Shown here: piece after piece, positions 30,001 through 50,965 of the stretch
Numbering within the stretch: position 1 is the first letter of the stretch
Layout of the letters: every line of letters starts with the position of its first letter
DNA from: a virus
Reading direction: 5' to 3' (one strand)
Length of the DNA: 64,000 bases
Virus record (IMG/VR): IMGVR_UViG_3300025872_000041
Span: 50,559 to 114,558 of that record
Notes under the pieces: model-generated
Seen by the model: only the letters and a program-made list of their open reading frames with translations
Databases searched by the model: none
What the model was told of the DNA's origin: nothing
Position numbers and translations under genes: made by a program

Positions 30001-33000
30001 TTATTATTAAATGATGCTCAGATATCTAGATACTTAACAATTGCTAAAAAAGAGTTAAGAGATCAGTTGCGTAAAGAAGGTAAGTCATTCTCTTTAGCTA
30101 AAGAAGAGATGCGCTTATTAAATCCTCTTTATGCAGCAATGAGTGAGTCTCAGTTAGAAGAGAGAATGTATGAAGAGTACCTTGCTGATAAGTTTGATGC
30201 TTGGAAGCTTAATAAAAAAACAGAGACTAGTCATGTAAACAAAAGTTTATTTGCTAAAATTGTTGAGTTAATCAAGAAAATATTTAGCAGATTTACTAAG
30301 AACGAATTAAACTCTTTGTTTGATAATATTGATGCCGGTAAGTATAGAAATAGTAAAGTAGTCACTAATAGATTTACAAACTCTCCATTTGATATAAGCG
30401 AGCCAGTACTTAAAGCTATTAAGATTGGTACAGATATAATTGAAGATTCTACATTTTCTGCTGAAGGTGAAGTTAATTACATTAGAGTAGATAAGTACTT
30501 ACCTGAACAAGAAGGTACTAGGTTAGCTGCAACTGTAGCTGCTCTCTATAATAACAAACTTAAAGATGCAGATAAGCAAACTAATACTGATGAGTTATTA
30601 GATTCTGTATTGGATAGTTATGAAGAACTTTATGATCCAGAGTTAGATCAGTATGTTGATTTAGATACTGCAACTTTTAACAAATTAAAAGAATATAAAG
30701 CTATATTTAGCAAAACTGAAAATAGAGAAATTCTTAAGGAGGCAGTACGTGAACATTTAGCTATTTTAAGTATTAAAGAAACTAATGAGCAAGATGCTTC
30801 AGATGATACTATAGATGAGTTAGGAGAAAGAGGTAAGCAGAATTATACCGAGGGTGCTGCTAGTGTAGGTGGTTTTGGTAGTTTATCTAAGTTTTTAAGA
30901 TCTTGGATATCTACTATTACATATCAAGCAGCTGATGAATTTGGTAATGTACAGTTCTTAGATGGTACACCTTATATCCAATCAGTGGATGGTTCTACAG
31001 TATATAATGGTATTCTTAAAGCAATTGCTGGAACTGAAGATATTGAGGAGGTTCTTTTAAAACTTAATTTATATAAAGAAAGAAACTTTGAGTCTGGTAA
31101 AGTTATTGAAGAATTCTTTATTCAGACTGGAGTAACATTTGATGAAGAAGGTAATCTTGATCTCTCTAATATTAAAAATAGTTATTTGTTCCAATCTTTT
31201 ACAAAAGGTTTTGGTCAGTATGCTATTGACTATTTATTTATTAATAAGGATCTTAAAAAAGAGATTGCAAATATTATCTCTGCAAATAGAAAAGATTCTG
31301 GTAAAGTACAGTTTGATCAATGGTCACAAGCATACAGTAATGCTTATGAAAGTAAATTAACTCCAGAATTAAAAGCTAAAGCCAAAGTTGTTTTAACTAA
31401 GATTATGGGAGCAATGGCACCAACTAAGAAATATACTGATGATGAATTAATCCAGCTAACTAATAAGTTATCTGTAGAATTAATGGAAGTATTGGGTATT
31501 TCTTTAAGTGGTATGTATTTATCTTATTCTATTGCAAGTATTATAAATAATCTTACTCCTCAGCAAATTAAACTATTTAAAATATACTCTAATGTAACAC
31601 CTATTACTAGAGGTGATATTGATGCTTTATATGGTTTAGTAGATAGCGAAGAAAATCCTTTTATAAATATTCAATATGAAACAACTGTAGATGCTGAAAC
31701 AGGAGAGGTTACTCAAGAAACAGAAGTACTAGAAGGTGGTGCTACTACACGTTTATATAATATGGCAAAAGCTAATGCTATATTTGATGAGTCTGTATAT
31801 GCTACTAGCTGGAAAAATGCAGAAGGTCAATTAGTATATGTACACCAATTACCATCATATCACTTAGTTAAGATAAATGAGATTAAGAAAGTCGGTGGTA
31901 TTGAAGACTTATTAAAAGATCCATTCTTAGCAAATAACTATTTATTAAATGATCCAAATTTCTTAGCATCTCTTGATTTACTTACAGTTAAAAGAATAGA
32001 TGGGCAAAAAGTAAGTAGTCTTAATGAGACAGAAGATGGTGATGTAATTGAAAACAAACAACTTGAGGTTAACAGACGTGAGGGAACTACATATGGTAGT
32101 TTTACTCCTGAAGAATTTATTGTTAGTTTACTTGATTTATATTCTGCCGGAGATGTACAAGAAAGAAATAAAGTTAAGTTTGGTATATCTACTCATCTTA
32201 TTCGTGTTCTAGAAGCATCTAGTACCGGTAACGTAATTAATTTACCTGTAATTAAAGCCGCTGCTAAAGTATCTGGTAAAAATACTTTAACCAAACAAGC
32301 ACAAGATGCATTACTTGGTTTTGTAGAACAAGAATATAATCGTATTCAAAGAGTAGCTAATGGTGAATTTACAGATGAGATTTATGATTTTAATACTGGT
32401 AAGATGCGCGGTCTTACATTATTTAAGACTGGTAAACTAATAAGTGAGGATTTAAAGAATGAATTAGAAGCACAAGCTCAAGAGAATTTACCTATAAGTG
32501 AACAACAAAAAGCACAGATTAAAAAAGAGATGACTCAGTCTATGCTTAATGATGTAAATTTCTTAATCACTTTGTTAGATGAAGATAATATTTTACAAGT
32601 AGAAGATGGTAAAGTAACTAAATCTGCATTAGCATCTTTTGTAACTAAAGGTTTTACTAATAAAGATAAAAAGAAATCTACTGATAAAACTAAAAACAGT
32701 ATATTTAATTTAGCAAAAGATGATTACAGATATAATCTTTTACAGATCTATGTAAATGATTTTATTAATACTACTGCTATTAACCAATTAATGCATGGTG
32801 ATCATGCTATATCATTTAAGGATGCTGTAGATGAAATTAAACGTGCTAAAGGATCTAATGCTACTGGTTCTAATATTGAAGCAGTTATAACTGATGAAAA
32901 ACTAGGTATCAAGCATGCATTTAAAACTGCTCATGTAGTTACTATTTCAGATCCTTTATTTCAAGCTAAATATGCAGGTGGTAAAGGAGAAAAAGCAAAT

Positions 33001-36000
33001 GCTCAGATGTGGATGAGTGTAAAAGCTTTACGTTATACATTATTTGGTTTAGGTAAACTATCTCCTATTCAAGCTGAGTTATTAAACAAAATTGAAAATG
33101 GTGAAACAGTAACTGGTGATTTCTTCTTTGGTGATGAAAAACATAAAGGTGCTGTCTCATTTGATGCTGCTACTAATTCTATTAAGTTAGTATATTTTGA
33201 TGGTCAAACATATATTAAGACATCTGGTTTTGTACTAACTAAAGAGTTTACTTCTTATGGTAAAAACTTTGATCAAGCTTTACCTGGTAAAGAACCATTA
33301 CACAATTTACGTAAGACTCTTGAAGCTTATGAAGCAAATAAAGAAACTGTAAGTTTAGCAATTCCAGTATCTGCATCTAAAGGTAAAAAGATAAATGTAG
33401 CTAGTGATGTAAATAGTATTACAGATGCTAATTTTATTGAGACTAGCACTAAATATTGGAGATTACAATTAGAGAATCCTTCTAATAAAATAATAATTAC
33501 AGATACAACTCAAATTAAAACAATTCTTACAGCAGAACAAGATGATGAGACGCTAGTTAATTTTATGGGTACTGATATTTCGGTTGGAGATCTTAAAAAG
33601 ATTTATCAAAATGCATCTATTAACCGAGTTAAGATTAATTATATTGGTAAAAGAAATGCAATCTTTACTTTAGATTCAGGATTAGAAGAAGTTAAAAAAT
33701 CTATTGCAGCTGGAACAGTAACTCCTAAACTTGCAGCATTCCAAAAATATGCTATTGAGACATTAAAATCTTCAGCAGGTGATGCTCAAATGATTGAGTT
33801 CTTTGAACTAGATGAGCAAGGAGAGCCCAAGTATGATCTTAACTCACCTATTACTATTGATAAGTTTGTTGAGTTGTTCTTATCATATTTCTCTAAAGGT
33901 GTCTTATCTGAAAAAGTTCCAGGACATGCTGTAGCATTGGTATCTGATTATGGTGTAAAGCAACTTAAAAAAGTACTAGAGTTGGATGAGAATGGTCAAC
34001 CAAAGAGATGGGAGATTGTAAGAGTTGAGGAATTTAAACTTAATCCTTCTAAGTATGGTACACCTAAAACTCAAGCTGATCTAGAAAATAGAACATTTAA
34101 TGATTTACAAGTAGGTGATTATTATGTAGATGACTTAAGACATAACGTACCTGAGTATGATGAAAATGGTAATATTACTGGATACTTTACTGAGTTTATT
34201 ATGCCAGCTCACTTTAAAGAGTTATTAAGTTTTATTAAGCCCGGTGATAAAATACCAGATGCTGTAGCTAAGATGTTCGGTGTACGTATTCCTTCACAGG
34301 ATAAACACTCTGCAGTAGCTCTCAAACTTGTAGATTTTATGCCAGTATATTATGGATCATCTGCAGTATTTCCACAAGAACTTATTGAGATATCTGGAGC
34401 TGACTTTGATATTGATAAACTCTATATAGCCATTCAAGAATGGTTAGTAGAGAATGGTAAATTTGTAGCCTATGGTAGTGGAACTACTAAGACAGAAAAA
34501 TTTAATCAGTTTGTAAAATATCAATTTAGTAAGAATAAAGAATTTAGAAAGATATATAATGATTATTATAAGGCTTTTGAAAAAGAAGCTAAAGAATTTA
34601 AAGAGTATGCTGCTGATTATTTAGATGAGTTAGATATTATTGATGAGAATGCTACTACTTTAGATTTTAATAAAAAAGAAATTATTCAAGCAGCTTTACA
34701 ATATTTAAATCTTCCATCCACTGCAGATGAGTATAATACTAAAGTAGAAAAGTTAGGATATGAACCTTATCAAGGAGCCCTTAATAATGTAATTGTAAAT
34801 GGACGTATTGCTTTATTAAATAATTCTGCTATGGTTACTGCAAAAGAAGGAGAGATTCCTAAAGCATTTCAGGTAGCTACTGTACAACCCCTTATTGATA
34901 TAGTTAAAAGCTTCACTGAGCAGTTTCCTGAACTTAAAGATCAATTAGAAGAAGGTAAATATAATATTGATACTCTACTTGGTAAGTACTATGCGTTTAG
35001 AAATAATAAAGAAGGTGCTAGAAACATTGGACCAGCGGTTAACTCTTTACTTGTTTATTCATTATTAAATGCTAATAATATTGATATTAGAAAAGCAAGT
35101 ACTTATACAGATGAAACAGGTGAGAAGATAGATCTTACTAATTTAAGATTTAAGCTTAATGGTAAAGAGTTTGATACATATAGTGAGACTAAAGCTTATG
35201 ATCCAAAAACTGGAAAATATGATGGTAAGAGAATAGCTGATATTCTATCTGCTTTAGTATCAGCTATGACAGATAACGCTAAAGAACGTCTTGCTGCTAA
35301 ATTAAATCTTAATATAGATTCATTAGGTGTTGTAGCTAATATGGTAGCCCAGGGTGTATCATTAGAGGATAGCTTACTATTCATCAATCAACCGGCAATA
35401 CGTAAGTTCTATAAAACTTTAAGAACAAATAAATCTTCATATGCTACAGATGCTGAAAGAAAAACAGGAAAAAATACTATTATTAAAAATCTAATAGAAG
35501 GTTATGATGTAAAAGAAATTCCTACTAATATTACAACAGAAGATCTTATTGCTGGCATTAAAAGAAATACTCCTGAAATTCAAGTATATGTACTTAATAG
35601 TTTTAAAACTTTAAATCTGCAAGCAGATACTTTTATGAATATATCTGCAGTATTAAAAGTAAATAAGGGATTACCTAAAGATCTTACAGAGTTTGATGAA
35701 ATCTATGATAAGGCTGTAGATTTAGGTTTAGAGATGACAGATAAAGAGTTTGAGACTAGCTCAATACCATTTGATATTCGTCCTTTATTACGTAATCAGA
35801 ATACAACTTTTGGATTTAACTTTACTGTATATAGAGAGATTAGATCTCTAACCGGTAGTGTTATGTTAAATCGTACACCTGTAGTTAATAGGATGCGTGA
35901 TATAGTATTAGCAAATACAGAGGTTAACTTTAGAGACCGTCAAAACTTTAAAAAGTCATTAGACCAAAACTTAATTTCTTTCTTTGCTATTAAAGCTTAT

Positions 36001-37737
36001 CTTAATATTTTAAATAAAGGCGGTTACAAAAGAGCTTTAGCTTCTTTAAATAACGGTATGATCTATGATCAAGTTGCAAGTACATTACCAGAAAGCATGG
36101 ACAACGTAACTGACGTAGTTAAGAAGTTAAGAGAGTTAAGTCCTAAGAACTATTTTGTAAATAAATTCTTATTTGCAATTACTGCGGCTAACAAATCTAA
36201 TAAAGATGGTATTAATAAAGTAGACTTTAATAACTGGACTAAGTTAAGTAAGTTACAGGTTAATAAAATTCAGTATAGCTTTATGGAGTTATATACTGAT
36301 GAATTAACCAGACCTTATGCAATTGACTTATTTCATTACTTACTTGTTAAAGATGGTGGTCAGTTTAAGTCTGGATCTTTTATTAGGATTATGCCAAACT
36401 TTATGTTTGAGATGATTCTTAATTCTTCTAAAGCTGCAGTTAATGCATTAAAAGGAAGTGCTGATGATGCTTTTGTTAGAAAGACATTTGGTGCAAATAT
36501 TAATGAATTGTACAATGAGTTTGTTAGAGGATTTTTACAAAGTTCTAATACAACGTTCTTTACAAAAACAATTAAAACTAATATTGCTAAGAATAATGAA
36601 CTTAAAGAATTAAAGAAAGAATTAAAACTTTCAAATGATGTACAATCACCAATTACAGTAAATGATAAGGGTATTGAAATTAATGTATTTAAAAATACAT
36701 CATTTGAGAAAGAGTTAATTCCTTTAGGTGATGTGTCTAACTATAAAGGTGATGAGATGATAGTTGACCAGAATGGTAATTATCAGATTGTACAACCTAT
36801 GATTGCATTACCTGGAGAATCTAGGTTATCTGAAGAAGGTAAACAGATTTATAGATATAATTTAAAATTTTTAAGAGCTGCAGGTTTAGTACAAGAAAGT
36901 AAAGATGGTAAAACACAAATAGGTTTTCCATTAGTATTTAAAAGAGTTGAGTATGTTAATTTTGATAAACAGACTACTTTCTATAGATTAAAAACTATAA
37001 AGAGAGATAGAGCTAAACAAGAAGAAAACTTAGCTGATCTTATTCAACCGGGTGATATGTATGCATTTGGTGTATCTGCACAGTATGAAAAGTTTGATCC
37101 AATTGGTTCTAGAAAACAATTTGCTGCGGGCTTTGTAATTCCTGGAACATTACCTACAAGTAAGAATATCTTTAAAGATAGAAGAAATAAAAATGTAGGT
37201 AATAATCCTGGTGCATTACCTGATACTAGTAATATTGATGCACTTGTTGAAGCTCAAATAGCTAACATAGAAAAACAGTTAGGTAATGTAGATATCAGTA
37301 AAGCTCCAGCTAATGTATCAAGTACTCTAGCTTCTAATGGTATTACTGTTAAAACTGAAGGTAAGAAGATTAAATATGAGAAAGATGGTAAACCATTTGA
37401 AACCACTGCTAAATCACCTGAAGAATTAGCTAATACTTTAACTCCTAAACCTCAAGAACAAACTGAAGAATTTGGAGATATTGATGCTATGATAGCAAGT
37501 GCTCCGGCAGCAGCGTTTAATGTATCTATAGGAGCAATTCTTAAAGCTAAAGCAGAGTACCCAGTACTTAATGAGTTCTATATGAATGAGCTTACAGATG
37601 AACAAAAAGAAAAAATAAAACAAGATTTAAATATTACCTCATTTGTTAATTTTGTAGAACAGTACAAAGATTACGTAAATACTAGTGGTGGTAATCAAAA
37701 TAGTTTTGTAGAACAAATAAAAAAATGTTATTTATAA
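24079..37737 (+). CDS. Giant virion RNA polymerase polyprotein-like protein with zincin domain
   Basis: This 4,552-aa protein contains the metal-binding loop of two-barrel RNA polymerases. SGADFDIDK places D3442, D3444 and D3446, preceded by RIPSQDKHS at about 3410, which matches the beta-prime double-psi barrel motif of YonO and crAss-like phage enzymes. A zincin motif HEAFH is at 1966-1970. The rest is mostly helical and charged, with acidic linkers near 1010-1050. In other crAss-like phages these parts occur in two or more large proteins of about 2,000 residues, so here they appear fused. Known relatives (phi14:2 gp66) are injected to transcribe early genes. The zincin may process the fused chain (inference). 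Confidence 0.85.
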   Translation: MEEFDNAIPPLGVEPGLPSNFEGSDAFQASIAPTNEPLISVTDTYAVPGVPVPSAFGSVAVDYDPSNPFDVAKQALTKPITESDVAFETSKEKYFQPGYQQTNFDRYYNDSDNFYKLGFNPLANNEALYNQNRSWYQDLFRAAGGIPSLGLSVVQSGYRSLADMATGDFSMTDETGAREFSQIMAERGSTRGGVSGFASNLVLQSGFVAGIAADYLATEALLAGAVGLSEGMALPAALAASASKTAGTIRSISALFDANTARQAYNTIKAMDVAAIGRGALNVAEATAKNIVPNTFKNVKSFITAESPVLGLANSVRGVADFVRDMKQISYATAEASMEGGGVKNDFIDKHINQYITENGVYPDQDVLNKIYEKASDAGFTTGMINAPLILLTNNITFDNLYKGRKSTLGKTASGIVEESKLTGKTLRFSERTGQFETMGIRQSFAESIRGLKTPKTYMQFAGGYFSKNLSEGLQEISQEIISGASTDYYERLYDTPEAGGVVAYLADAYDNLKDQASAQGIEVFASGFLMGGLTGISTAVANRAYGSSKNIIGKIAQAKNPEEYRKAVEEESARFNKIADELNDAINNGNKVLALDIDNLLLQIRGGTDMVNARKSFDEKAFHDIKDITRFNSIYTALQTDKYDFLIKKLQDMQQMTGAELKEAFSLADDVTDDEAKKVLDITIDRAGQIKDQYEQFSAFKNPFNPNTYRSANTPESIIGFINELQSYKGFEEARKTAVFSLHGLEQAKTRMADLTKQMSSIGGVADLGYSDVTATLSIAGIDNEINLLTAEIESSKDITDPGLIEINDNKKKKLKALESLKTNLARVENINDPVEVRKTSYLKKAFNDYMKVLLDEKGTELSPADLNEAYRIFTDYYALNYDKTNFNKVLADLYDPNNFIKLAERERTLVVARDKRRAEFFKKAFKKYAETSKIGIFLKALATGGFVIDLKYLKALDTNTFDELKELILNDPDIKFRDLNSNKLFGKEDPRFQNIKSFVSDFEVKTKAEVKQTPSDTSKPKEASQFSTDTTEEEEELGSEDITDVSEFTQTIVRRAYDDYLKALKEADIPVSFEEFATSKKAVSIINALTELEAAYDAITETKPEFTEWLRVNARTPVVFDVLDKNGVTFSDIFIQQRDENQYITTALEEGESIVSSGYNGVFITKLVGSIEGGEGVDIYFVKLNDGTMAIDATNKPDELIDFEIDIYTSLEKAQKAQKAIGDYLANNKKQFVFDNTPLVNGQIISDNKNNEYVVLSYPSEIAAGSNLKLKNLKTGAILTTKSFTGFKLERVPVEKKEYASRFDSTSVLDRAWGKRMENESQKDATARLSNLLRDTPIEELLSGLSIRFTNLNKSPERYDYLRLPDQKENQSFGLFTDSYAIALVFNGEEIGYLPNPTSFQFLDVNGNPISYDRINADRVKQAFYLKNGRYNQAVADIKASYKNKIALLNYLKSKLGKNTSVEIPYSDLKKVANINIGLGSYEFLSRDEERPKFSGLTYNTINGGIYVIDRKNKYKNGSIVTVEGSPITDIDPDLLESTIKEVDAARYKNGYDTLLNYGRYVAVVKLPNGKVRFVELTTPELSSEELNTLAASIKERIELTKKENIDDEGKPLAQEYNDVWNEDNIGSKLFISLPLKDRGKFLDIYVSPNGSLVLDFVNKNSRADKITRKKIINDPQFNTFSELLTLLNTAIKEHDADVKLPANKMDIVLTGRSFKATLPMNIDTLQVLDMEASVGVNVVKDVSVYVDMLEPASDVQAQPLLPKTPDDVLDIDTSNIDFSSAPPDANINPELLRGVAPVQVSSGDALSKVLAAQKSIPQQIKQLQAEADTKTDEVKKVLLAQRVAEKGELTTADKKEIRTKAENSPEVLAIKAQIKILTDSLALKAVNTGYTESDVTNLTEFLTWVQNNLPDFVTVEDLNTLKNNLYKDGKTVGAFVSSLSNIAGNVEVNGTIYTSASSPFKYHEAFHAVFRLLLNDAQISRYLTIAKKELRDQLRKEGKSFSLAKEEMRLLNPLYAAMSESQLEERMYEEYLADKFDAWKLNKKTETSHVNKSLFAKIVELIKKIFSRFTKNELNSLFDNIDAGKYRNSKVVTNRFTNSPFDISEPVLKAIKIGTDIIEDSTFSAEGEVNYIRVDKYLPEQEGTRLAATVAALYNNKLKDADKQTNTDELLDSVLDSYEELYDPELDQYVDLDTATFNKLKEYKAIFSKTENREILKEAVREHLAILSIKETNEQDASDDTIDELGERGKQNYTEGAASVGGFGSLSKFLRSWISTITYQAADEFGNVQFLDGTPYIQSVDGSTVYNGILKAIAGTEDIEEVLLKLNLYKERNFESGKVIEEFFIQTGVTFDEEGNLDLSNIKNSYLFQSFTKGFGQYAIDYLFINKDLKKEIANIISANRKDSGKVQFDQWSQAYSNAYESKLTPELKAKAKVVLTKIMGAMAPTKKYTDDELIQLTNKLSVELMEVLGISLSGMYLSYSIASIINNLTPQQIKLFKIYSNVTPITRGDIDALYGLVDSEENPFINIQYETTVDAETGEVTQETEVLEGGATTRLYNMAKANAIFDESVYATSWKNAEGQLVYVHQLPSYHLVKINEIKKVGGIEDLLKDPFLANNYLLNDPNFLASLDLLTVKRIDGQKVSSLNETEDGDVIENKQLEVNRREGTTYGSFTPEEFIVSLLDLYSAGDVQERNKVKFGISTHLIRVLEASSTGNVINLPVIKAAAKVSGKNTLTKQAQDALLGFVEQEYNRIQRVANGEFTDEIYDFNTGKMRGLTLFKTGKLISEDLKNELEAQAQENLPISEQQKAQIKKEMTQSMLNDVNFLITLLDEDNILQVEDGKVTKSALASFVTKGFTNKDKKKSTDKTKNSIFNLAKDDYRYNLLQIYVNDFINTTAINQLMHGDHAISFKDAVDEIKRAKGSNATGSNIEAVITDEKLGIKHAFKTAHVVTISDPLFQAKYAGGKGEKANAQMWMSVKALRYTLFGLGKLSPIQAELLNKIENGETVTGDFFFGDEKHKGAVSFDAATNSIKLVYFDGQTYIKTSGFVLTKEFTSYGKNFDQALPGKEPLHNLRKTLEAYEANKETVSLAIPVSASKGKKINVASDVNSITDANFIETSTKYWRLQLENPSNKIIITDTTQIKTILTAEQDDETLVNFMGTDISVGDLKKIYQNASINRVKINYIGKRNAIFTLDSGLEEVKKSIAAGTVTPKLAAFQKYAIETLKSSAGDAQMIEFFELDEQGEPKYDLNSPITIDKFVELFLSYFSKGVLSEKVPGHAVALVSDYGVKQLKKVLELDENGQPKRWEIVRVEEFKLNPSKYGTPKTQADLENRTFNDLQVGDYYVDDLRHNVPEYDENGNITGYFTEFIMPAHFKELLSFIKPGDKIPDAVAKMFGVRIPSQDKHSAVALKLVDFMPVYYGSSAVFPQELIEISGADFDIDKLYIAIQEWLVENGKFVAYGSGTTKTEKFNQFVKYQFSKNKEFRKIYNDYYKAFEKEAKEFKEYAADYLDELDIIDENATTLDFNKKEIIQAALQYLNLPSTADEYNTKVEKLGYEPYQGALNNVIVNGRIALLNNSAMVTAKEGEIPKAFQVATVQPLIDIVKSFTEQFPELKDQLEEGKYNIDTLLGKYYAFRNNKEGARNIGPAVNSLLVYSLLNANNIDIRKASTYTDETGEKIDLTNLRFKLNGKEFDTYSETKAYDPKTGKYDGKRIADILSALVSAMTDNAKERLAAKLNLNIDSLGVVANMVAQGVSLEDSLLFINQPAIRKFYKTLRTNKSSYATDAERKTGKNTIIKNLIEGYDVKEIPTNITTEDLIAGIKRNTPEIQVYVLNSFKTLNLQADTFMNISAVLKVNKGLPKDLTEFDEIYDKAVDLGLEMTDKEFETSSIPFDIRPLLRNQNTTFGFNFTVYREIRSLTGSVMLNRTPVVNRMRDIVLANTEVNFRDRQNFKKSLDQNLISFFAIKAYLNILNKGGYKRALASLNNGMIYDQVASTLPESMDNVTDVVKKLRELSPKNYFVNKFLFAITAANKSNKDGINKVDFNNWTKLSKLQVNKIQYSFMELYTDELTRPYAIDLFHYLLVKDGGQFKSGSFIRIMPNFMFEMILNSSKAAVNALKGSADDAFVRKTFGANINELYNEFVRGFLQSSNTTFFTKTIKTNIAKNNELKELKKELKLSNDVQSPITVNDKGIEINVFKNTSFEKELIPLGDVSNYKGDEMIVDQNGNYQIVQPMIALPGESRLSEEGKQIYRYNLKFLRAAGLVQESKDGKTQIGFPLVFKRVEYVNFDKQTTFYRLKTIKRDRAKQEENLADLIQPGDMYAFGVSAQYEKFDPIGSRKQFAAGFVIPGTLPTSKNIFKDRRNKNVGNNPGALPDTSNIDALVEAQIANIEKQLGNVDISKAPANVSSTLASNGITVKTEGKKIKYEKDGKPFETTAKSPEELANTLTPKPQEQTEEFGDIDAMIASAPAAAFNVSIGAILKAKAEYPVLNEFYMNELTDEQKEKIKQDLNITSFVNFVEQYKDYVNTSGGNQNSFVEQIKKCYL

Positions 37738-43601: not shown

Positions 43602-44189
43602 ATGAGCTATACTAGAGAACAAATTGAAGCTGCTGTAAAAGCAAAAGGTTATAAGTACTTCGAGAATGGAGACTTTAACGTAAACATTATTGGTGTCCGT
43701 AATTCCTCTACTGGTAACAAAGTAACCAATGTATTTGATGATCATTTAACTCTTTCTTATAAAGAGAATGGTGAGTGGAAATTTAAAATTTGGCCTGCTA
43801 CCACTGATCCTGGAACCAAGGGTGTTAAAGAATTTCACAACGCTGCTGGAGTTGCACGTTTAGTGCCTGGTCAATATTCAGGTTCACACCATGTAGGTTT
43901 GCACCAAGGTAAATATGAGGCCCTTAAGCAGAAGGCAAATGTAAAAGTTTACCGTGATGCTAACAAAGACATGACTTATGATGAATCTAAGATACAAGAA
44001 GGGATCTTCGGTATTAACATTCACAAAGCTGGTGCAGATTCTACTTACGTGGAAAACTGGTCTGAGGGTTGCCAAGTGTTCAAGAAGTCTGCGGACTTTG
44101 ATGCATTTATGGCTATCTGTAAGAAAGCTGCTACACTGGGTGGTAACTCTTTTACCTATACTCTTATCGAGTCTAAAGATATTAAATAA
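43602..44189 (+). CDS. Probable endolysin (L,D-transpeptidase/YkuD-like signature)
   Basis: This 195-aa protein matches a family common in Bacteroidota phages. Recognisable parts are VFDDHLTLSY, ATTDPGT, LVPGQYSGSHHVGLHQGKYEAL, VYRDANKDMTYD and FGINIHKAG followed by WSEGCQVF. The His … S-x-G-C spacing is the catalytic signature of the YkuD fold, which acts on peptide cross-links of peptidoglycan. No signal peptide is visible, so it should depend on the holin for release. It lies between the holin-like gene and a secreted peptidase. A different peptidoglycan-hydrolase fold cannot be excluded. Confidence 0.6.
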   Translation: MSYTREQIEAAVKAKGYKYFENGDFNVNIIGVRNSSTGNKVTNVFDDHLTLSYKENGEWKFKIWPATTDPGTKGVKEFHNAAGVARLVPGQYSGSHHVGLHQGKYEALKQKANVKVYRDANKDMTYDESKIQEGIFGINIHKAGADSTYVENWSEGCQVFKKSADFDAFMAICKKAATLGGNSFTYTLIESKDIK

Positions 44190-44192
44190 TCT

Positions 44193-44642
44193 ATGAAGGG
44201 GTTAATTATTAACCTCTTTTTATTCTTAGCCGTCCCTTGTTTTGCTCAAATCAAAATTGACAAAGCTGGGGACGGTTGGGATTTAAAAGTTGATTCAGCA
44301 ATTCAACTAATAAAGAAGGTAGACATAGATAAGTATAAGATGCTTGATACAAATTGTACTCAGGTATCTTTTATGATAAGTCCCTATTCTTCTTGCCAAC
44401 TAGAGAATGGTAAAGGTCATATCTACATAGCTGTAGATGATATTAAACTAAACTCTATAAATAATATTGCTGTAGTTCTAGTACATGAAAGCCTACATCT
44501 TTATATAGCAAAAAAAGGTATAGAGATGATTCCTGAAAAGGAGGAGACATTTTGTTACATGTATGAATTGAGCTTTATAAAAAACTTAGAAAATCCAGAG
44601 CCTTGGCTCACAGAACACGCTATTAACAACATAAAAAAATGA
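44193..44642 (+). CDS. Exported zincin metallopeptidase-like protein
   Basis: This 149-aa protein has a clean signal peptide (MKGLIINLFLFLAVPCFA, cleavage before Q19) and a zincin motif HESLH at 98-102. A Glu-rich helix follows (EKEETFCYMYEL, about 115-126) that can supply the third zinc ligand. Two Cys residues (in NCTQ and SSCQ) could pair in the periplasm. It follows the endolysin by 3 bp and overlaps the next exported gene by 4 bp (ATGA). It could be a periplasmic peptidase helping lysis or processing the exported proteins downstream. Which of these is not visible. Confidence 0.65.
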   Translation: MKGLIINLFLFLAVPCFAQIKIDKAGDGWDLKVDSAIQLIKKVDIDKYKMLDTNCTQVSFMISPYSSCQLENGKGHIYIAVDDIKLNSINNIAVVLVHESLHLYIAKKGIEMIPEKEETFCYMYELSFIKNLENPEPWLTEHAINNIKK

Positions 44643-46531
44643 AAAAATTTATCTCTTCACTTGTAACTACTTTGTTTGCAACCGTAATGTTTGCGCAAAG
44701 TTCTAGCACATCTCCAGGTACAGGCCACTGGGTTGTGATTGATTCTGGCTACCAAGTTGCTACTACTACTGTAGGACAGACAGTAGCACCTTTACATTTT
44801 TACAATACCTCTACTTCTGAGAAGATCACCGGTATGCAGTTCCGTGTATTCTACGATAACACTGCATTTACTGCTGTAGTTCCTTCTTTAAAGATCTCTA
44901 GTACAGATCAGTATCTTCAGTACGTAGATAGTAATGCACAAGGATTCTTGACTGTAACTTTAGCTTACACTGGATCTAATGCTACTTTTAACTACTCTAA
45001 TGGAGCTACATTTGATTTAACCTTCACACACGCAGGAAGTGCAGTATGGAACAACTTAGATTCTATTAAGACTTTGAAAGTTGCGGGTGTTAAATCATTT
45101 GCAAACAAAGCTGCTACTAACTGGGGTAACGATACTACATTAGTAGTTTACTCTTACGGTGGTCGCTTCAACCAAAAAGTATTACGCTTTGCTGCTAAGT
45201 TTAAGAACGTAACAGGTTCTGATGCTAAGAACTTGTGGGTGTCTTTAGAAAAGAAATCTCCTAGCGGATCTTGGACTCAAGTAGAAGCTAAAGCAACTAA
45301 CTCTACTGGTGTTGTAGTATTCCGTAAATTCTTAGATACTACTTACTGGGATGTACGTATGGTAGTCAAAGGAGATACAATGACTCCTGGTAACGTATTC
45401 TCTACTGCAGATGCACAGAAGATTAACCAATCTATCTTAGCACAATACACTCCTTCAGGATTTGATTACTACACAATGGATGTAAACAACACTGATGGAT
45501 CTATTACTATTGCTGATGTATACTCTGTATACGGACGTTTAGCAGGTAGATTCTCTGCTTGGCCTAATGCTAAGAAAGATGTAATGTTCTTTACTGTTGC
45601 TGAATACAATGCTATCAATGGAGCTGCTTCTAACTTGACTGGTACCTACGCTACTGTAAACAACTTCAACTACTCTATTGATGGTAAAGATTCTATCACT
45701 TACTACGTAGCTGTTAAAGGAGATGCCAACTCTACCGGCTTTAAGATGGCTCGTTTGACTCCTATCAAGATTACAAACCCTGCTAATGCTAAGCGTTATA
45801 TTATTGATGAGACTGTAGCTTATGACTTCCCTGCAGAAACTATTGAAATCAATATGCCTAAAGTAACTGTAGATGAAGGTAACTTAGTTAACGTTCCTGT
45901 TAAAGTTCTTACAGATGGTAAGCAGTTAGGAGCTCTTCAGTTAGACTTGCGTTATGACACTGCTTACTTAGAGTTTAAGAAAGTAGAAAACACCGAAAAG
46001 ATGATGAAGTGGACTTCTTACTTAAACCCTTCTAATGGTACAGTATCTTGGGGAGCAGCTGACTTAACTAACGAGAACTTCTTAAATGATGGAGAGCAAG
46101 TATTCACTCTTCAGTTTATTGCTAAGAAACCACAAGACTCTTGGGCTACTGCAGCTTTATGGACTGGTGCTAAATACGTAGGAGATGTAAAGTCTAAAGA
46201 CATGAACATTACCCCGGCTATGGGTATTGTAGAGGTACGTAGAATTAACAAAGGAGTTGTCTCTTTAAATGACCTTAACTCTGTAATTGTATTCCCTAAT
46301 CCTACAGATGGTGCAGTACAGATCCAATTCCAGATTAAACAAGATGCTGACGTAGATGTAGCTATCTCTGATGAGGTAGGAAGACGTATACAGACCATTC
46401 TAAACGAGAAGATGCCTGCAGGTAAATACAAGTATACTGCTAACTTAGATCGTCTTTCTGATGGTGTATATGTACTTACTGTAGTTACAGAGCACGAAGT
46501 ATTACATTCTAAAATTATTGTAAACAAATGA
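44639..46531 (+). CDS. Exported cohesin/dockerin-like protein with T9SS type A sorting domain
   Basis: This 630-aa protein has a signal peptide (MKKFISSLVTTLFATVMFAQ), a cohesin-like domain (about 25-150), a CnaB-like sandwich (about 180-250), a dockerin-like loop (DVNNTDGSITIAD, 281-293), a second cohesin-like domain (about 398-535) and a C-terminal domain from about 548. That last domain has FPNP (552-555), DEVGRRI, and LSDGVYVL, the pattern of the type A T9SS sorting domain (Por_Secre_tail). The host T9SS would carry such a protein over the outer membrane and anchor or release it. The ATGA overlaps on both sides place it firmly in the phage operon. Finding this host-type secretion signal in a phage is unusual. 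Confidence 0.8.
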   Translation: MKKFISSLVTTLFATVMFAQSSSTSPGTGHWVVIDSGYQVATTTVGQTVAPLHFYNTSTSEKITGMQFRVFYDNTAFTAVVPSLKISSTDQYLQYVDSNAQGFLTVTLAYTGSNATFNYSNGATFDLTFTHAGSAVWNNLDSIKTLKVAGVKSFANKAATNWGNDTTLVVYSYGGRFNQKVLRFAAKFKNVTGSDAKNLWVSLEKKSPSGSWTQVEAKATNSTGVVVFRKFLDTTYWDVRMVVKGDTMTPGNVFSTADAQKINQSILAQYTPSGFDYYTMDVNNTDGSITIADVYSVYGRLAGRFSAWPNAKKDVMFFTVAEYNAINGAASNLTGTYATVNNFNYSIDGKDSITYYVAVKGDANSTGFKMARLTPIKITNPANAKRYIIDETVAYDFPAETIEINMPKVTVDEGNLVNVPVKVLTDGKQLGALQLDLRYDTAYLEFKKVENTEKMMKWTSYLNPSNGTVSWGAADLTNENFLNDGEQVFTLQFIAKKPQDSWATAALWTGAKYVGDVKSKDMNITPAMGIVEVRRINKGVVSLNDLNSVIVFPNPTDGAVQIQFQIKQDADVDVAISDEVGRRIQTILNEKMPAGKYKYTANLDRLSDGVYVLTVVTEHEVLHSKIIVNK

Positions 46532-46878
46532 ACATTAAAAAAGCACTTGGTCTTAACCAAGCAGAACCCGTAGTAGTAGATCCTAAGAACAGGTTCTATT
46601 ATATGCTACAACAAATGCAAGCAAACCGTTGGAAGATTACAGCTATTGTATTAGGTTTGTTCTTCTTTATTATCCTTGGTATTAACTCTGCAGTATTCTT
46701 TGGAATAGAAATCCAAGAGAACTGGAAAGAGATGTTACTAATTCTTTTTGGTGCATTTGTAGGTAACTTAAATAAAGTAGTAGACTACTGGTTTAACTCA
46801 GAAGACCGTGACAAGATGCTAATACAAAAGGTGGATGAAGAAGACGGAGAATCATTATCTAACCCAAATAACTCTTAA
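46528..46878 (+). CDS. Two-helix membrane protein (holin-like or anchor)
   Basis: This 116-aa protein has membrane segments at about residues 35-58 (WKITAIVLGLFFFIILGINSAV) and 67-84 (MLLILFGAFVGNLNKVV), with charged ends. The C-terminal tail is acidic and probably disordered. It begins in the ATGA overlap with the T9SS-targeted protein gene. The topology resembles a second holin or a membrane anchor for the neighbouring disordered protein. No family is recognised with certainty. Confidence 0.55.
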   Translation: MNIKKALGLNQAEPVVVDPKNRFYYMLQQMQANRWKITAIVLGLFFFIILGINSAVFFGIEIQENWKEMLLILFGAFVGNLNKVVDYWFNSEDRDKMLIQKVDEEDGESLSNPNNS

Positions 46879-46882
46879 TATT

Positions 46883-47215
46883 ATGTCTGAAGAACAACAA
46901 GAAGAAAGCGTAATGTCTGCTACTAAGAAAGCAGTCATTGGCGCAGTCACCACTGCAGTAACTGCAGGAGGTGCATGGTTTATGACCCACTTAGGTGGCG
47001 GAGAAGAGCCTAAAGAAGAAGCTAAAACAGAACAAGCTGCATCCGGTGCACCTGTTGTGATTAACTTACAGAACAACAACACTAACCAACAGAAGCAATC
47101 TAATGGTGGAGGTACTAACACAGTTATTAAAGAACGTGTTATTGAGAAACAAGCTCCTGCACCAGCCGCTGCTCCTGCTGCTAAGCCTGAACCTAAAGAA
47201 GAAGATCCATGGTAA
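46883..47215 (+). CDS. Single-pass membrane protein with disordered periplasmic-type tail
   Basis: This 110-aa protein has one membrane segment at about residues 16-36 (AVIGAVTTAVTAGGAWFMTH), then a disordered Glu/Lys/Gln/Ala/Pro-rich tail (NNNTNQQKQ, APAPAAAPAAKPEPK). I chose the ATG at 46883, 4 bp after the preceding stop, rather than an upstream start at 46835 that would overlap the previous gene by 44 bp. An Ala/Pro-rich extended tail could span the periplasm, as in inner-membrane spanins or TonB-like proteins. That is inference. Confidence 0.6.
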   Translation: MSEEQQEESVMSATKKAVIGAVTTAVTAGGAWFMTHLGGGEEPKEEAKTEQAASGAPVVINLQNNNTNQQKQSNGGGTNTVIKERVIEKQAPAPAAAPAAKPEPKEEDPW

Positions 47216-47907
47216 AAAAGTGGTTCAATAAGTTTATGACTTTAGTAGTCATGACTCTTGCTGGTTGTGGTTCAATGAAAACAACAACTGATGGAGAAGC
47301 TGTAGAGAGCAAAGATATCTCTACAGTTTCTTCTTATACTGATTCTATTAAGAAAACAGTGCAAGTAGTTAGTGTAGATATGACAAAAGTTCTTTCTTTG
47401 TATCCTGCTTTACAGGAAAAGAATGTAGGACTTGGTTTTGCTGAGTCAGTACTAGATTATTTGGATGAAACAAACAGATTTATATTTACAGAAGAAAAGT
47501 CAGAGATCAAAGAAAGAATGGTTACTCAATTCAAAGCCTCTAAAAAAGGTGTATTTGATGAGCCAATTGATGGAAAAGGTAAGATTAAACCTGCTCACTA
47601 CTTTGTTTATGTTACTGTGGCTGATTTTGCTGTTGATGAAGACGAGCAAGTTGATGGTCTTAAGTCAAAAGTTGTGGTTACTACCTTCATTCGTTTACAG
47701 GTCCGCTTTGTGGATGCTAAAACAGGTCAGATCTATATTGGTTCTGGTGAAGGTGAATCAACAAAGACTGGTGAATCATTCTTGAAGTCTCTGGATGATA
47801 TGAAATTCTCTCAAAGTACTGTAGGTAAAGCTACCCGTAAGTCTCTTGAAACTGCTTGCACTAATGTGATCCAAAATCTCATTAAGTCAGGTGTATTTAA
47901 AAACTAA
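47209..47907 (+). CDS. CsgG-like outer-membrane lipoprotein
   Basis: This 232-aa protein has a lipoprotein signal with lipobox LAGC (residues 17-20, lipidated C20). The mature part follows the CsgG plan: an NRFIFTEEKSEI segment, YFVYVTVADFAVDED, an alternating TTFIRLQVRFVDAKTGQIYIG strand pair, then a helical end with KATRKSLETACTNVIQNLI. CsgG-family proteins form secretion channels or act as periplasmic lipoprotein partners. The start ATG lies inside the last codons of the previous gene (7-nt overlap). The next gene, also exported, starts inside its end. A phage-encoded pore or plug for exported proteins is possible. The family call is by eye. Confidence 0.6.
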   Translation: MVKKWFNKFMTLVVMTLAGCGSMKTTTDGEAVESKDISTVSSYTDSIKKTVQVVSVDMTKVLSLYPALQEKNVGLGFAESVLDYLDETNRFIFTEEKSEIKERMVTQFKASKKGVFDEPIDGKGKIKPAHYFVYVTVADFAVDEDEQVDGLKSKVVVTTFIRLQVRFVDAKTGQIYIGSGEGESTKTGESFLKSLDDMKFSQSTVGKATRKSLETACTNVIQNLIKSGVFKN

Positions 47908-49354
47908 AATACTAATTCTATTTATGATAATAGCTCTGTCCGTAAATGGGCAGAGCTTTATGTATTCCTACACAGATCCTTGTACACAGGAGTTAAAATT
48001 TATTAATGCCGATATGTCTAGTCCTATAGTAATTGCTTACTATGGACAGGTTAAAACATTCTCTTATACAGAATTACAAGATGGAACATTTGACAATTGG
48101 ATAAATAGTGTATATTTGAAGTATAAAAATACATCACCCTGTCAAGGAGTTGGAGTAACTACTACTACAACTACCACAACAAATACGACTCTAAACATTG
48201 TAAGCAATGTAATGAACTTAGGGGCTATTTCAAATGTTGGTAGTGTAAATATAGATGTAGGATCTAGCACCTCTTCAGGAACTAACGTAGGGACAACCAA
48301 TAAAACAAATAATAATGACAGTAGAACTAATTCTCGGAATCGTACTAGTAGTAGCTCTAGTAATTCTAATTCTTCTAGCAGCTCGTCAGGAGAGACTGGA
48401 AACGGAAGCAATGGAGGAAATCCACCAGAAAATCAAGGTGGGAATTCCGACAACACCAACCCCGGAAGTGGTAGTGGCAGCGGAGAAGGTAATGGAGGAA
48501 GCAGTGGCTCCGGCTCCAGTGGAAACTCCAGTGGTAGTGGAAGCAGTAGTGGAAACTCCCAAGGTGGAGGAAGTGGTGGTAGCGGAGGTAAAACCGAAGA
48601 AAAAACGCAAGTACAAGAAGAAAAACCCTCCGACCAACAAGTAGAAGAAACTAAGACTGAGCAACAAAAGACTCAGTCTAGTGGTACTGCAAAAGCAGCC
48701 AATAAAGCTAAAGCCGAAGTTGCTAAGCCCGCAATATTAGTAACTGGTGATTTAGTTGGTATTCAGACTAAGTCTGATGGAGCACAAGATGCAAGAGGTA
48801 CTGCCTCCTTTACAAGAGTAAAAGGAGATGGTACTTCTTCTCTTGGCTTTTCAGCCGATTACATGGTAAATGCTAAAATCGGTAATATCTCCTGTGTCCG
48901 TTCATGGATAGGAGCAAATAAAAAAGGCAACAAACACATTAGTGTTGTATCAGACGGTCTAAGTCTAATGCCTAAATCAATATCAAACACACTCTTGTTT
49001 GTAAGAGTGAACTCAGTTAAAAACTTTACAGCACTCTATGGAGCTGCAGGAACCTATGGTAAACTATTTGGAGAAGAGATGATTTCTACAATTGCTATAG
49101 GTGGATTTATGTACAAGGGTAAACTTACTAAGAGTATAGATGCTACAATTATTGCAGCTGGAATCTATTCTCCTTACTCTAAGTATTATACAGAATCTTT
49201 ATTTGAAGCTAAGCCTATTGTAATTCCTTTCTTTAACTTTACCTACAGGATGACCAAGACATTTGGTTTAGGTATTACAGGAGGAGGAACTTATGTAGCA
49301 GGACAAGATATCCTAAACTTTCAAGTATTAATGGGAGCAAAGTTATTGTTATGA
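47891..49354 (+). CDS. Exported Ser/Gly-rich protein with C-terminal barrel-like domain
   Basis: This 487-aa protein starts at GTG 47891, which gives a full signal peptide (KTKILILFMIIALSVNG, cleavage before Q). The next ATG would remove most of it. After a small N-terminal domain comes a T-rich stretch and a long Asn/Ser/Gly low-complexity region (about 95-265). Then a beta-rich C-terminal part (about 285-487) has alternating strands and ends in a hydrophobic strand, VLMGAKLLL. That is outer-membrane-barrel or surface-protein style. The Ser/Gly region contains a second gene in another frame. It overlaps the CsgG-like gene upstream and the PA14 gene downstream (ATGA). Confidence 0.6.
   Translation: MYLKTKILILFMIIALSVNGQSFMYSYTDPCTQELKFINADMSSPIVIAYYGQVKTFSYTELQDGTFDNWINSVYLKYKNTSPCQGVGVTTTTTTTTNTTLNIVSNVMNLGAISNVGSVNIDVGSSTSSGTNVGTTNKTNNNDSRTNSRNRTSSSSSNSNSSSSSSGETGNGSNGGNPPENQGGNSDNTNPGSGSGSGEGNGGSSGSGSSGNSSGSGSSSGNSQGGGSGGSGGKTEEKTQVQEEKPSDQQVEETKTEQQKTQSSGTAKAANKAKAEVAKPAILVTGDLVGIQTKSDGAQDARGTASFTRVKGDGTSSLGFSADYMVNAKIGNISCVRSWIGANKKGNKHISVVSDGLSLMPKSISNTLLFVRVNSVKNFTALYGAAGTYGKLFGEEMISTIAIGGFMYKGKLTKSIDATIIAAGIYSPYSKYYTESLFEAKPIVIPFFNFTYRMTKTFGLGITGGGTYVAGQDILNFQVLMGAKLLL
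48315..48644 (+). CDS. Overprinted membrane protein inside the Ser/Gly-rich gene
   Basis: This 109-aa frame lies wholly inside the 487-aa gene, shifted by +1. It reads like a real protein: a strong N-terminal membrane helix (ELILGIVLVVALVILILLAA), a charged turn, an acidic Val/Glu/Pro-rich rod (about 45-90), and a basic end (KPKKKRKYKKKN). The host-frame product of the same bases is nearly pure Ser/Gly/Asn. So the overprinted frame may carry the constraint. The topology resembles an inner-membrane spanin or a TonB-like linker. The ATG at 48315 is its first Met. Simple repeats keep other frames open here too, so expression needs proof. Confidence 0.55.
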   Translation: MTVELILGIVLVVALVILILLAARQERLETEAMEEIHQKIKVGIPTTPTPEVVVAAEKVMEEAVAPAPVETPVVVEAVVETPKVEEVVVAEVKPKKKRKYKKKNPPTNK

Positions 49355-50502
49355 GGTGGATCATTGTTTTATTCTTCTTTGCAAACTCTTTGCTTGGACA
49401 GTTTACCTACTCAGGTTATGTCTATAGTGCTAATGGAGGTGCTGCTATAAACGTTCCTGTAAAGCTTTATAAGAGGACTACAACTACATCAGGTAATAAC
49501 TCTACTTCTGTTAAAGTATATAGAACTCACTACGGTACAGGAAATACATCTCAGTATGCAACCTATCCCTCTACAAGATCAGAGATGGATAGATGTTTTA
49601 ATACAGGTTGGGCTGCAACTACCTTATGGTCCACTGTTACAATGTCTGGTAACTCTTCCTTAAACTTTGGAGCATACACAACATTAACATCAGCTGGTGC
49701 TTCTGTTCCTAGTAGTGGAGATTATTATGCTACTGAAGTTACTTTTACTTTTACTCCTGCAGAAACTGGTAGTTATTCTTTTGGTATGACTTCTGATGAT
49801 GGATCAGATTTGTGGTTAGTAAACACAGGAAGTATTATTGAATACTATGGAGGTAAAGGAGTAGGTACTTACAAATACGGTAGTGTGAGTTTAACCGCAG
49901 GTACTTCTTATACGTTTATTGCACGCATGCAAGAATACTCTGGAGGAGATGGATTATATCTTATCTGGAGAAGACCTTCGCAATCTGCACATTCTTATCA
50001 ATCTTCTGAAGTAGGGACAATAACTACTACAACCTCTTCTTGGACTTTAGATGCTACAGCGTATACTAACTCTTCAGGATACTATGCTTTCTCTAGAACC
50101 ACTACTGCAAGTACGCAATGGTATATACAAGTAGATGTACCTACAAGAATTCAGGCTTACACTAGCACAGATATTCAAACAGTATCTAATATTATCTTAG
50201 GTAAGTCTACAGTCAATGGATTATCTTATCACAGATTTGATGTTAATGATGACGGAAGATTAAACATTGCAGACAAGTATTATGTAGCTGCTAGGAAGTC
50301 AGGAAGATTTACTAGATGGAGGTTAGCCTCTGATGTAAGAATATTTACAGCTACTGAGTACAATACAATCTCTTCTTCTACTGGTAATGTGCGTACTACA
50401 TATCCAGGAATAACTACCTTCTCAACTTCTACTTTAACTAGTGGAGGAACTTTAAATCTATATTTAATAGCTCCGGGATACTCTGGAGCAGTAACCTACT
50501 AA
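49351..50502 (+). CDS. Exported PA14/dockerin-like protein
   Basis: This 383-aa protein has a signal peptide (MRWIIVLFFFANSLLG, cleavage before Q). A PA14-like carbohydrate-binding domain lies at about 52-228 (FTPAETGSYSFGMTSDDGSD, IEYYGG, IARMQEYSGGDGLYLIW). A dockerin-like loop (FDVNDDGRLNIAD, 296-308) and a C-terminal sandwich with FTATEYNTI follow. The segments flanking the PA14 domain (YVYSANGG … VPVKLYKR and SSWTLDATAYTNSSGYYAF) match the continuous CnaB-like domain of the 630-aa protein. So PA14 seems to be inserted into that domain. It has no T9SS tail of its own. It overlaps the barrel-like gene by ATGA. Confidence 0.7.
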   Translation: MRWIIVLFFFANSLLGQFTYSGYVYSANGGAAINVPVKLYKRTTTTSGNNSTSVKVYRTHYGTGNTSQYATYPSTRSEMDRCFNTGWAATTLWSTVTMSGNSSLNFGAYTTLTSAGASVPSSGDYYATEVTFTFTPAETGSYSFGMTSDDGSDLWLVNTGSIIEYYGGKGVGTYKYGSVSLTAGTSYTFIARMQEYSGGDGLYLIWRRPSQSAHSYQSSEVGTITTTTSSWTLDATAYTNSSGYYAFSRTTTASTQWYIQVDVPTRIQAYTSTDIQTVSNIILGKSTVNGLSYHRFDVNDDGRLNIADKYYVAARKSGRFTRWRLASDVRIFTATEYNTISSSTGNVRTTYPGITTFSTSTLTSGGTLNLYLIAPGYSGAVTY

Positions 50503-50503
50503 C

Positions 50504-50965
50504 ATGAAAAAACTATTTATACTTTCCGCTTTAGTCATTATGATGACTTCTCTGAGTGCTCAATGCTACAAAGTTGACACTGTTTCTAACACTGCTACTG
50601 TAAAGTATTTACTAGACAGGCCTGTAGAGTTTGGTGCTAAGGCAACACTAGAAGAGTTAATCTCTGATAAATATAGTCTATGTGATTCCGGAAGTATTGT
50701 ATCTGGAGAGATTGTATCAATTGCAATGCCGGAACAATTACTAAATATTGTAGGATTGCAGTTTTTAAAGAGACAATATATTATTACAACTAAAGTTGTT
50801 ATTGATGGCAAAACCTATATGGGTACTGCTACTAAAACAATGTTTGTGAATGCCATGTTTGTTGAGGTATCTGGTATACCACATAACAAAAAGGTTTTTT
50901 ACAAGACTATGCAGCAATCCTTAAAAAATGCTGTATATTATATATATGGCAGCAACAAAAACTAA
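50504..50965 (+). CDS. Exported protein of unknown function
   Basis: This 153-aa protein has a signal peptide (MKKLFILSALVIMMTSLSA, cleavage before Q) and an alpha/beta mature part with two Cys residues (CYKV near the N-terminus and SLCDSG) that may form a disulfide. It contains IVSGEIVSIAMPEQLLN and YIITTKVVIDGKTYMGTAT strand segments and a C-terminal helix. I do not recognise the family. It starts 1 bp after the PA14/dockerin gene, and its 3' end is overlapped by a small basic-protein gene. Confidence 0.65.
   Translation: MKKLFILSALVIMMTSLSAQCYKVDTVSNTATVKYLLDRPVEFGAKATLEELISDKYSLCDSGSIVSGEIVSIAMPEQLLNIVGLQFLKRQYIITTKVVIDGKTYMGTATKTMFVNAMFVEVSGIPHNKKVFYKTMQQSLKNAVYYIYGSNKN

Follow-up and report, generated by a model that had tools for sequence, protein, structure and literature searches.

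A phage operon pairing a T9SS-tagged cohesin scaffold with a dockerin adhesin of exchangeable sugar-binding domain, probably serving surface display

One operon is common to crAss-like phages and to unrelated contractile-tailed phages of Bacteroidota; in the DNA studied here it occupies positions 44193-50965 and probably specifies a system for surface display that relies on the type IX secretion system (T9SS) of the host. The domains of its proteins, its gene order, its conservation, the swapping of one sugar-binding domain and its spread over phage groups are all visible on sequence comparison. The window, by which is meant the whole stretch of 64,000 bases that was analysed, corresponds to positions 50,559-114,558 of the 114,558-base virus record IMGVR_UViG_3300025872_000041. 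It encodes crAss muzzle and CrAss_Ring_2 proteins (PF25731 with 114 bits and PF25702 with 66.5 bits), and since both lie far above their cut-off of 27 bits the phage can be called crAss-like, which bears out the phage origin assigned to it in a first-pass annotation. Relatives of the muzzle protein include those of Cellulophaga phages phi4:1 and phi17:2 and of F. psychrophilum phages, not all of which belong formally to the Crassvirales. No phage integrase was found in the record, and no RNA families or tRNAs in the window. The structural region also holds a single open reading frame of 4552 aa (24079-37737) and an 838-aa protein (15362-17878) with DUF5872 and DUF5754 matches above cut-off.

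The cassette and its scaffold gene

The first-pass annotation had drawn attention to one gene, an open reading frame of 630 aa on the plus strand at 44639-46531, and the frame is found at exactly that place. The gene is real, but it does not stand by itself: it belongs to an operon with a dockerin-plus-lectin neighbour, and the operon is common to unrelated phage groups. Between 44193 and 50965 neighbouring genes either share 4-44 bases or lie almost end to end, and the products of six of the eight carry a signal peptide or lipobox. The cassette and the gene before it are arranged as follows.

43602-44189, plus strand: endolysin-like gene (phrog_3000, E=4e-39; phrog_33083, endolysin, E=1e-12), directly upstream of the cassette, which in this lineage thus lies at the lysis module
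44193-44642, plus strand: secreted protein with a signal peptide and a HESLH...E zinc-peptidase-like motif; 4-base overlap with the scaffold start
44639-46531, plus strand: T9SS-tagged scaffold, 630 aa (signal peptide, cohesin 1, transthyretin-like plus dockerin-like module, cohesin 2, type A sorting domain)
46528-46878, plus strand: small membrane protein with one strong hydrophobic segment; 4-base overlap with the scaffold gene
46835-47215, plus strand: small protein with an Ala-rich N-terminal segment, an N/Q-rich stretch and a Pro/Ala-rich tail with a final W; accompanies the scaffold in all lineages
47209-47907, plus strand: CsgG-fold outer-membrane lipoprotein with lipobox LAGC, among the best conserved neighbours
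47891-49354, plus strand: secreted, probable outer-membrane protein with a Cys-containing N-terminal domain, a low-complexity linker and a beta-rich C-terminal domain
49351-50502, plus strand: dockerin adhesin with a signal peptide, a split N-terminal beta domain with inserted PA14 (about 49720-49992) and a dockerin-like C-terminal module
50504-50965, plus strand: small protein with a signal peptide, the conserved last gene of the cassette

Within the scaffold gene the following parts can be told apart.

44639-44695, plus strand: signal peptide, residues 1-19, predicted cleavage between A and Q, read from the sequence, the A-Q being kept among relatives
44702-45154, plus strand: cohesin module 1, residues 22-172 (one of two Pfam Cohesin stretches; Foldseek cohesin matches)
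45164-45838, plus strand: transthyretin-like plus dockerin-like module, residues 176-400 (homologue of the module at the C-terminus of 49351-50502; weak transthyretin-like PDB matches)
45839-46243, plus strand: cohesin module 2, residues 401-535 (best Pfam Cohesin stretch 403-523; PDB cohesin matches)
46289-46531, plus strand: T9SS type A sorting domain, residues 551-630 (TIGR04183 and PF18962 above curated cut-offs), separated from cohesin 2 by a linker

The type A sorting domain claimed in the first-pass annotation sits at the extreme C-terminus, where TIGR04183 covers residues 551-629 (cut-off 23 bits; 36.4 when the protein was scanned, 39.2 when the record was) and Pfam Por_Secre_tail PF18962 covers residues 551-628 (41.7 bits, cut-off 27). 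A FlgD-type Ig domain in its place was rejected, scoring 18.4 bits against a cut-off of 27. At the other end, the leader MKKFISSLVTTLFATVMFA, followed after the predicted cut by QSSS, has a Lys-rich start and a hydrophobic core and reads by eye as a Sec signal peptide; the A-Q is retained in nearly all relatives and the remaining leader drifts, so that the signal peptide proposed earlier is upheld, and a simple hydropathy scan did not flag it at the scan threshold. Between the two ends, Pfam Cohesin PF00963 matches in two stretches (50.6 bits, cut-off 24.1). The AlphaFold model of the scaffold is of low confidence (pLDDT 51 overall), and its best PDB matches by Foldseek are without exception cohesins (probability 1.00, lowest E 1e-8, target-normalised TM 0.72-0.80 for most single-cohesin targets). 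A profile search of the PDB gave weak matches to cellulosomal cohesins and to solved T9SS sorting domains (8glj, 8glk). In the dockerin-like module the acidic loop D281-N283-D293 (D-x-N...D) is invariant among relatives, and the first repeat is degenerate. One crAss-like contig (locus L062, 1057-2803) has its scaffold gene broken by a frame change that leaves 345 aa, either a sequencing error or a broken copy.

Among the neighbours, the lipoprotein at 47209-47907 gave an AlphaFold model with pLDDT 70, whose 16 best PDB matches are all to CsgG (E 2e-7 to 4e-6), the curli secretion lipoprotein. Fold comparison alone gave these matches: a sequence search of the PDB with the family returned nothing, a direct profile comparison fell short of significance against E. 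coli CsgG, and the best Pfam CsgG match (E 0.018) lies below the cut-off. As the Pfam match is below cut-off and the profile comparison not significant, we call the protein CsgG-fold and leave pore formation aside. In fold, and in the window also by its lipobox, it resembles the CsgG curli channel, PelC, GNA1162, FlgT and LpoB-like lipoproteins; it differs from CsgG itself in that no curlin-like gene was seen, and it is at most a putative pore-former, the membrane-spanning hairpins not being resolved. The description of the next protein, 47891-49354, as probably outer-membrane is likewise cautious, because a strand-periodicity test for a beta-barrel was not significant (77 of 500 shuffles scored as high). 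An open reading frame of 109 aa in another frame (48315-48644), inside the low-complexity part of that gene, is likely not a gene. The protein at 44193-44642 belongs to phrog_1365, a family of unknown function, and accompanies the cassette in crAss-like and other lineages. The protein at 46835-47215, with its hydrophobic Ala-rich stretch and Pro/Ala-rich tail, has a somewhat TonB-like layout and might serve to connect the inner membrane with the components in the outer one.

Conservation and spread of the operon

That the gene could be a chimeric assembly join to host DNA had been raised in the first-pass annotation as an objection to its own reading. Relatives of the scaffold occur in 96 other IMG/VR viral contigs, the best 80 of them at 62-96% identity and with the same gene order around, and these contigs together with purifying selection rule out an assembly chimera or contamination with host DNA. 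Calculated from 99 distinct unsplit scaffolds, dN/dS is 0.10 for cohesin 1, 0.15 for the dockerin region, 0.15 for cohesin 2 and 0.25 for the sorting domain; the leader (0.46) and the linker (0.41) are looser than the modules. A scan of bacterial genomes for the cassette found no chromosomal copy, and its sole match was a 16.5-kb contig in phage gene order. This contig (RFPL01000028.1, locus L086) carries the whole cassette and is binned in a Sphingomonadaceae MAG; being phage-like, it was rejected as a bacterial source and gives no host indication, and the binning is probably an error, because Sphingomonadaceae are, to our knowledge, not known for T9SS. T9SS domains, cohesins and CsgG-like proteins all belong to families known from cells, as would be expected of host genes captured through transduction or chimeric joining and lacking a function of their own. 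Such an origin is nonetheless extremely improbable: all modules are under purifying selection (dN/dS 0.10-0.25, leader and linker excepted), conservation extends to well over 150 contigs across phage groups, and the genome scan found no chromosomal copy.

The sorting domain itself follows the operon closely. Exactly one TIGR04183 match above cut-off was found in each of 54 large phage records, the window's own and 53 others, always in the scaffold gene, and none in six cultured crAss-like or muzzle-bearing phages (phi4:1, phi17:2, phi38:1, FPSV-S29, crAss001, csAssE-Sib). The contrast between 54 of 54 operon carriers and none of six cultured phages rules out a chance match. The same six phages have no CsgG-like gene, and since cultured crAss-like phages do without the cassette we regard it as accessory. 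The sorting domain is also the most divergent folded part of the scaffold, with a mean majority residue of 67% among closer relatives as against 85-91% in the folded domains; the residues still conserved in the wider set are PNP, PxGxYxY, LxxLxxGxY and the terminal Lys. A domain that drifts but holds its signature, at a dN/dS of 0.25, behaves as a recognised export tag. A plain sequence search with it across phage records recovered Immuto alone, at an E of 1 or worse, because the domain diverges too far for such a search.

Almost all of the 186 cassette loci, many of which are truncated and some of which come from the same contig, preserve the gene order. Of these loci, 178 have the sorting domain, 179 the CsgG-like gene, 184 the dockerin module, 177 a member of the 46835 family and 172 one of the 47891 family. 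The loci extend to the cultured Flavobacterium phages vB_FspM_immuto (Immutovirus, MW353175-MW353177), which infect Flavobacterium sp. LMO8 and are T4-like myoviruses with gp20, gp23 and sheath genes. Immutovirus shares with the window a C-type lectin with dockerin, a Coh1-dockerin and a Coh2-T9SS protein, a CsgG-like protein and a probable outer-membrane protein; it differs in being a T4-like myovirus, in its split scaffold and in a scaffold identity to the window of about 30%. The split falls at one domain boundary, giving SP-Coh1-dockerin and SP-Coh2-T9SS proteins, both secreted, and it recurs across Immuto-type loci, which argues that the two halves work together non-covalently. With a cultured relative that infects Flavobacterium, the host of the window phage is likely a T9SS-bearing member of the Bacteroidota; the tie drawn in the first-pass annotation holds to that extent, the T9SS of the phage's own host being a prediction.

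A tail sheath was detected in 21 of the 48 cassette records tested, including contigs of 205-309 kb. Muzzle-bearing records had no detectable sheath and sheath-bearing records no detectable muzzle. The crAss-like sequences cluster together in the scaffold tree, next to a group from myoviruses (about 75-80% identity), with low support at the fork, an arrangement that fits one transfer of the cassette between crAss-like and myovirus phages. The sheath-bearing contigs of 205-309 kb (L132, L154, L155, L126) possibly represent jumbo phages, although in L126 the assembly may have been over-joined from a phage of about 145 kb.

The dockerin adhesin and its exchanged domain

The cohesin and dockerin modules claimed in the first-pass annotation fare differently. 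The cohesins are well supported by profile and fold; the dockerin is weak by Pfam, the neighbouring adhesin 49351-50502 reaching 17 bits against a cut-off of 22.9, with a best E of 0.00026 among 38 adhesin members and most members below the Pfam cut-off. Yet a profile of the C-terminal module of the adhesin matches the same module inside the scaffold at E = 9e-29. Of the two calcium loops, the second alone is clear in these dockerin-like modules, and since most modules also score below cut-off, the cohesin-dockerin joint between scaffold and adhesin is to be taken as a prediction. Profiles built in this analysis found no other cohesin or dockerin-like module in the record, outside the scaffold and gene 49351.

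A surface scaffold whose cohesins could hold dockerin partners recalls the cellulosome scaffoldins of Clostridium, and the PDB matches are to cellulosomal cohesins. The phage scaffold differs in having two cohesins and no enzymes, in its Gram-negative anchoring by T9SS, in being phage-encoded and in its lectin partner. A cellulosome was rejected, as the only dockerin-like partner found in the record is a lectin-type protein and no enzyme domain was seen.

The flanks of the adhesin stay constant among relatives and its middle domain changes. Among 38 distinct members the middle domain matches Lectin_C (24), Laminin_G_3 (8), GEVED (6) and PA14 (3), and some members carry an unnamed type that has no Pfam match. 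Placed on the scaffold tree, the four domain classes need 18 changes where 3 would suffice, and scaffold pairs that are 98.8%, 98.1% and 97.3% identical carry different classes. The sugar-binding domain is thus repeatedly exchanged in one adhesin slot between related phages. Frequent swapping of this kind suggests a variable target, for which the glycans of the host surface are the obvious candidate; algal or particle polysaccharides could also be bound. On one Immuto-type contig (loci L115 and L182) the scaffold is preceded by a tandem pair of dockerin adhesin genes, as if duplicated.

A predicted display system and its relation to known phages

From these domains and their arrangement we infer that the scaffold is exported by T9SS, and we propose a route for the adhesin and a purpose for the display. 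The natural prediction is that the scaffold leaves through the host T9SS: it would cross the inner membrane by its Sec signal peptide, after which the host system would recognise the type A domain, carry the protein across the outer membrane and anchor it outside the infected cell. One of the two cohesins would then hold the dockerin-like module of 49351-50502, which would present the sugar-binding domain, and the scaffold's own dockerin-like module could connect scaffolds to one another. The adhesin has no T9SS sorting domain of its own; the CsgG-fold lipoprotein, the probable outer-membrane protein and the small membrane protein may help it across the outer membrane or hold the assembly. If the sugar-binding domain has to fit glycans that vary, most likely those on the surface of the host itself, its swapping is to be expected.

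Late in infection, masking of receptors in this way might prevent superinfection and keep progeny off debris. T5 offers a precedent in Llp, a single lipoprotein that binds one outer-membrane protein and so shuts off the phage's own receptor once a cell is infected; our proposal shares the blocked receptor and differs in the modular, glycan-binding display. In flavobacteria, gliding adhesins displayed by T9SS are thought to act as phage receptors (PMC13288928). The same anatomy could serve adhesion in place of masking, and function alone would differ: displayed lectins would tie infected cells to their neighbours, to algal polysaccharides or to particles, so that the progeny would meet more hosts close by. 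The sugar-binding domains are typical of adhesins and their swapping equally fits changing targets outside the cell, but a lytic phage would gain only if the infected cell survived long enough, and we hold this function to be rather unlikely.

The position of the cassette bears on its timing. It follows the endolysin gene here, and endolysin-like genes lie nearby in 73 of the 186 loci, which fits late expression; the argument is not general, because the Immutovirus cassette sits among replication genes, about 130 kb from the annotated lysozyme in the linear record. The same position invites the reading that the cassette is an outer-membrane lysis module, acting in a spanin-like manner with holin and endolysin, the T9SS tag merely placing one part. 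The cassette does lie directly downstream of holin-like and endolysin genes in the window, and a secreted zinc-peptidase-like gene adjoins it. Lectin domains and their swapping, however, have no place in such a mechanism, and with the distance from the lysozyme in Immutovirus we judge it quite improbable. Proximity to the lysis genes in the crAss-like lineage could also mean that the exported proteins coat released virions, which would pick up lectins at the cell surface and stick to mucus, particles or hosts. Phage virions are known to carry Ig-like and lectin domains, but the signal peptides on six cassette-neighbouring genes point to export before assembly, and the search of the record placed no cohesin or dockerin-like module in a virion gene, so that decoration of virions seems unlikely. 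Display on the infected cell remains our preferred reading.

The first-pass annotation had called T9SS substrates encoded by phages hardly described; they have been noted at least twice before (PMC7468147, PMC6949934). Cryophage, a 76-kb phage of Bacteroidetes from cryoconite, has three T9SS-tagged proteins, for which the authors suggested hijacking of the host's system and exclusion of superinfection (PMC7468147). As in the window, type A domains occur on phage genes, one of the three with PA14, and the cargo is highly variable between variants; it differs in that each variable cargo has its own T9SS domain and in that a single phage is concerned, and the publication mentions neither a cohesin scaffold nor a dockerin partner, a CsgG-like gene or a conserved operon (PMC7468147). 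Phages of Bacteroidetes in gut phage cluster 2 encode proteins with T9SS sorting domains, one fused to a BACON domain of sugar-binding type, and here too the case differs, being a passing mention near head genes with no operon, cohesin or swapping adhesin reported (PMC6949934). A literature search returned no description of a phage cohesin-dockerin-lectin system, an earlier description elsewhere being possible; what appears to be new is the operon with its cohesin-dockerin logic and its lectin swapping, and the T9SS cargo of phages was already known.

In its fullest form the display reading describes a mobile machine made up of a T9SS scaffold, a cohesin-dockerin joint, a CsgG-type channel for the adhesin and a slot where recombination replaces one lectin domain by another; the infected cell would be covered with a lectin fitted to its own glycans and thereby closed to other phages. 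We put this complete version forward tentatively, as a possibility. If true, it would be the first phage-encoded system to combine the host T9SS, a cohesin-dockerin joint and exchangeable lectins, and it would point to T9SS as a phage target beyond the known display of receptors. Two passing remarks in the literature become a defined operon in crAss-like and T4-like phages, and the CsgG-like gene together with a T9SS-tagged cohesin provides a marker for finding the system in metagenomes. Two Immutovirus products, annotated without function and only as 'lectin C-type' and 'cohesin domain-containing', would gain one. Flavobacterium sp. LMO8 and Immutovirus form a cultured host-phage pair that carries the system, in which export, binding and superinfection are testable.
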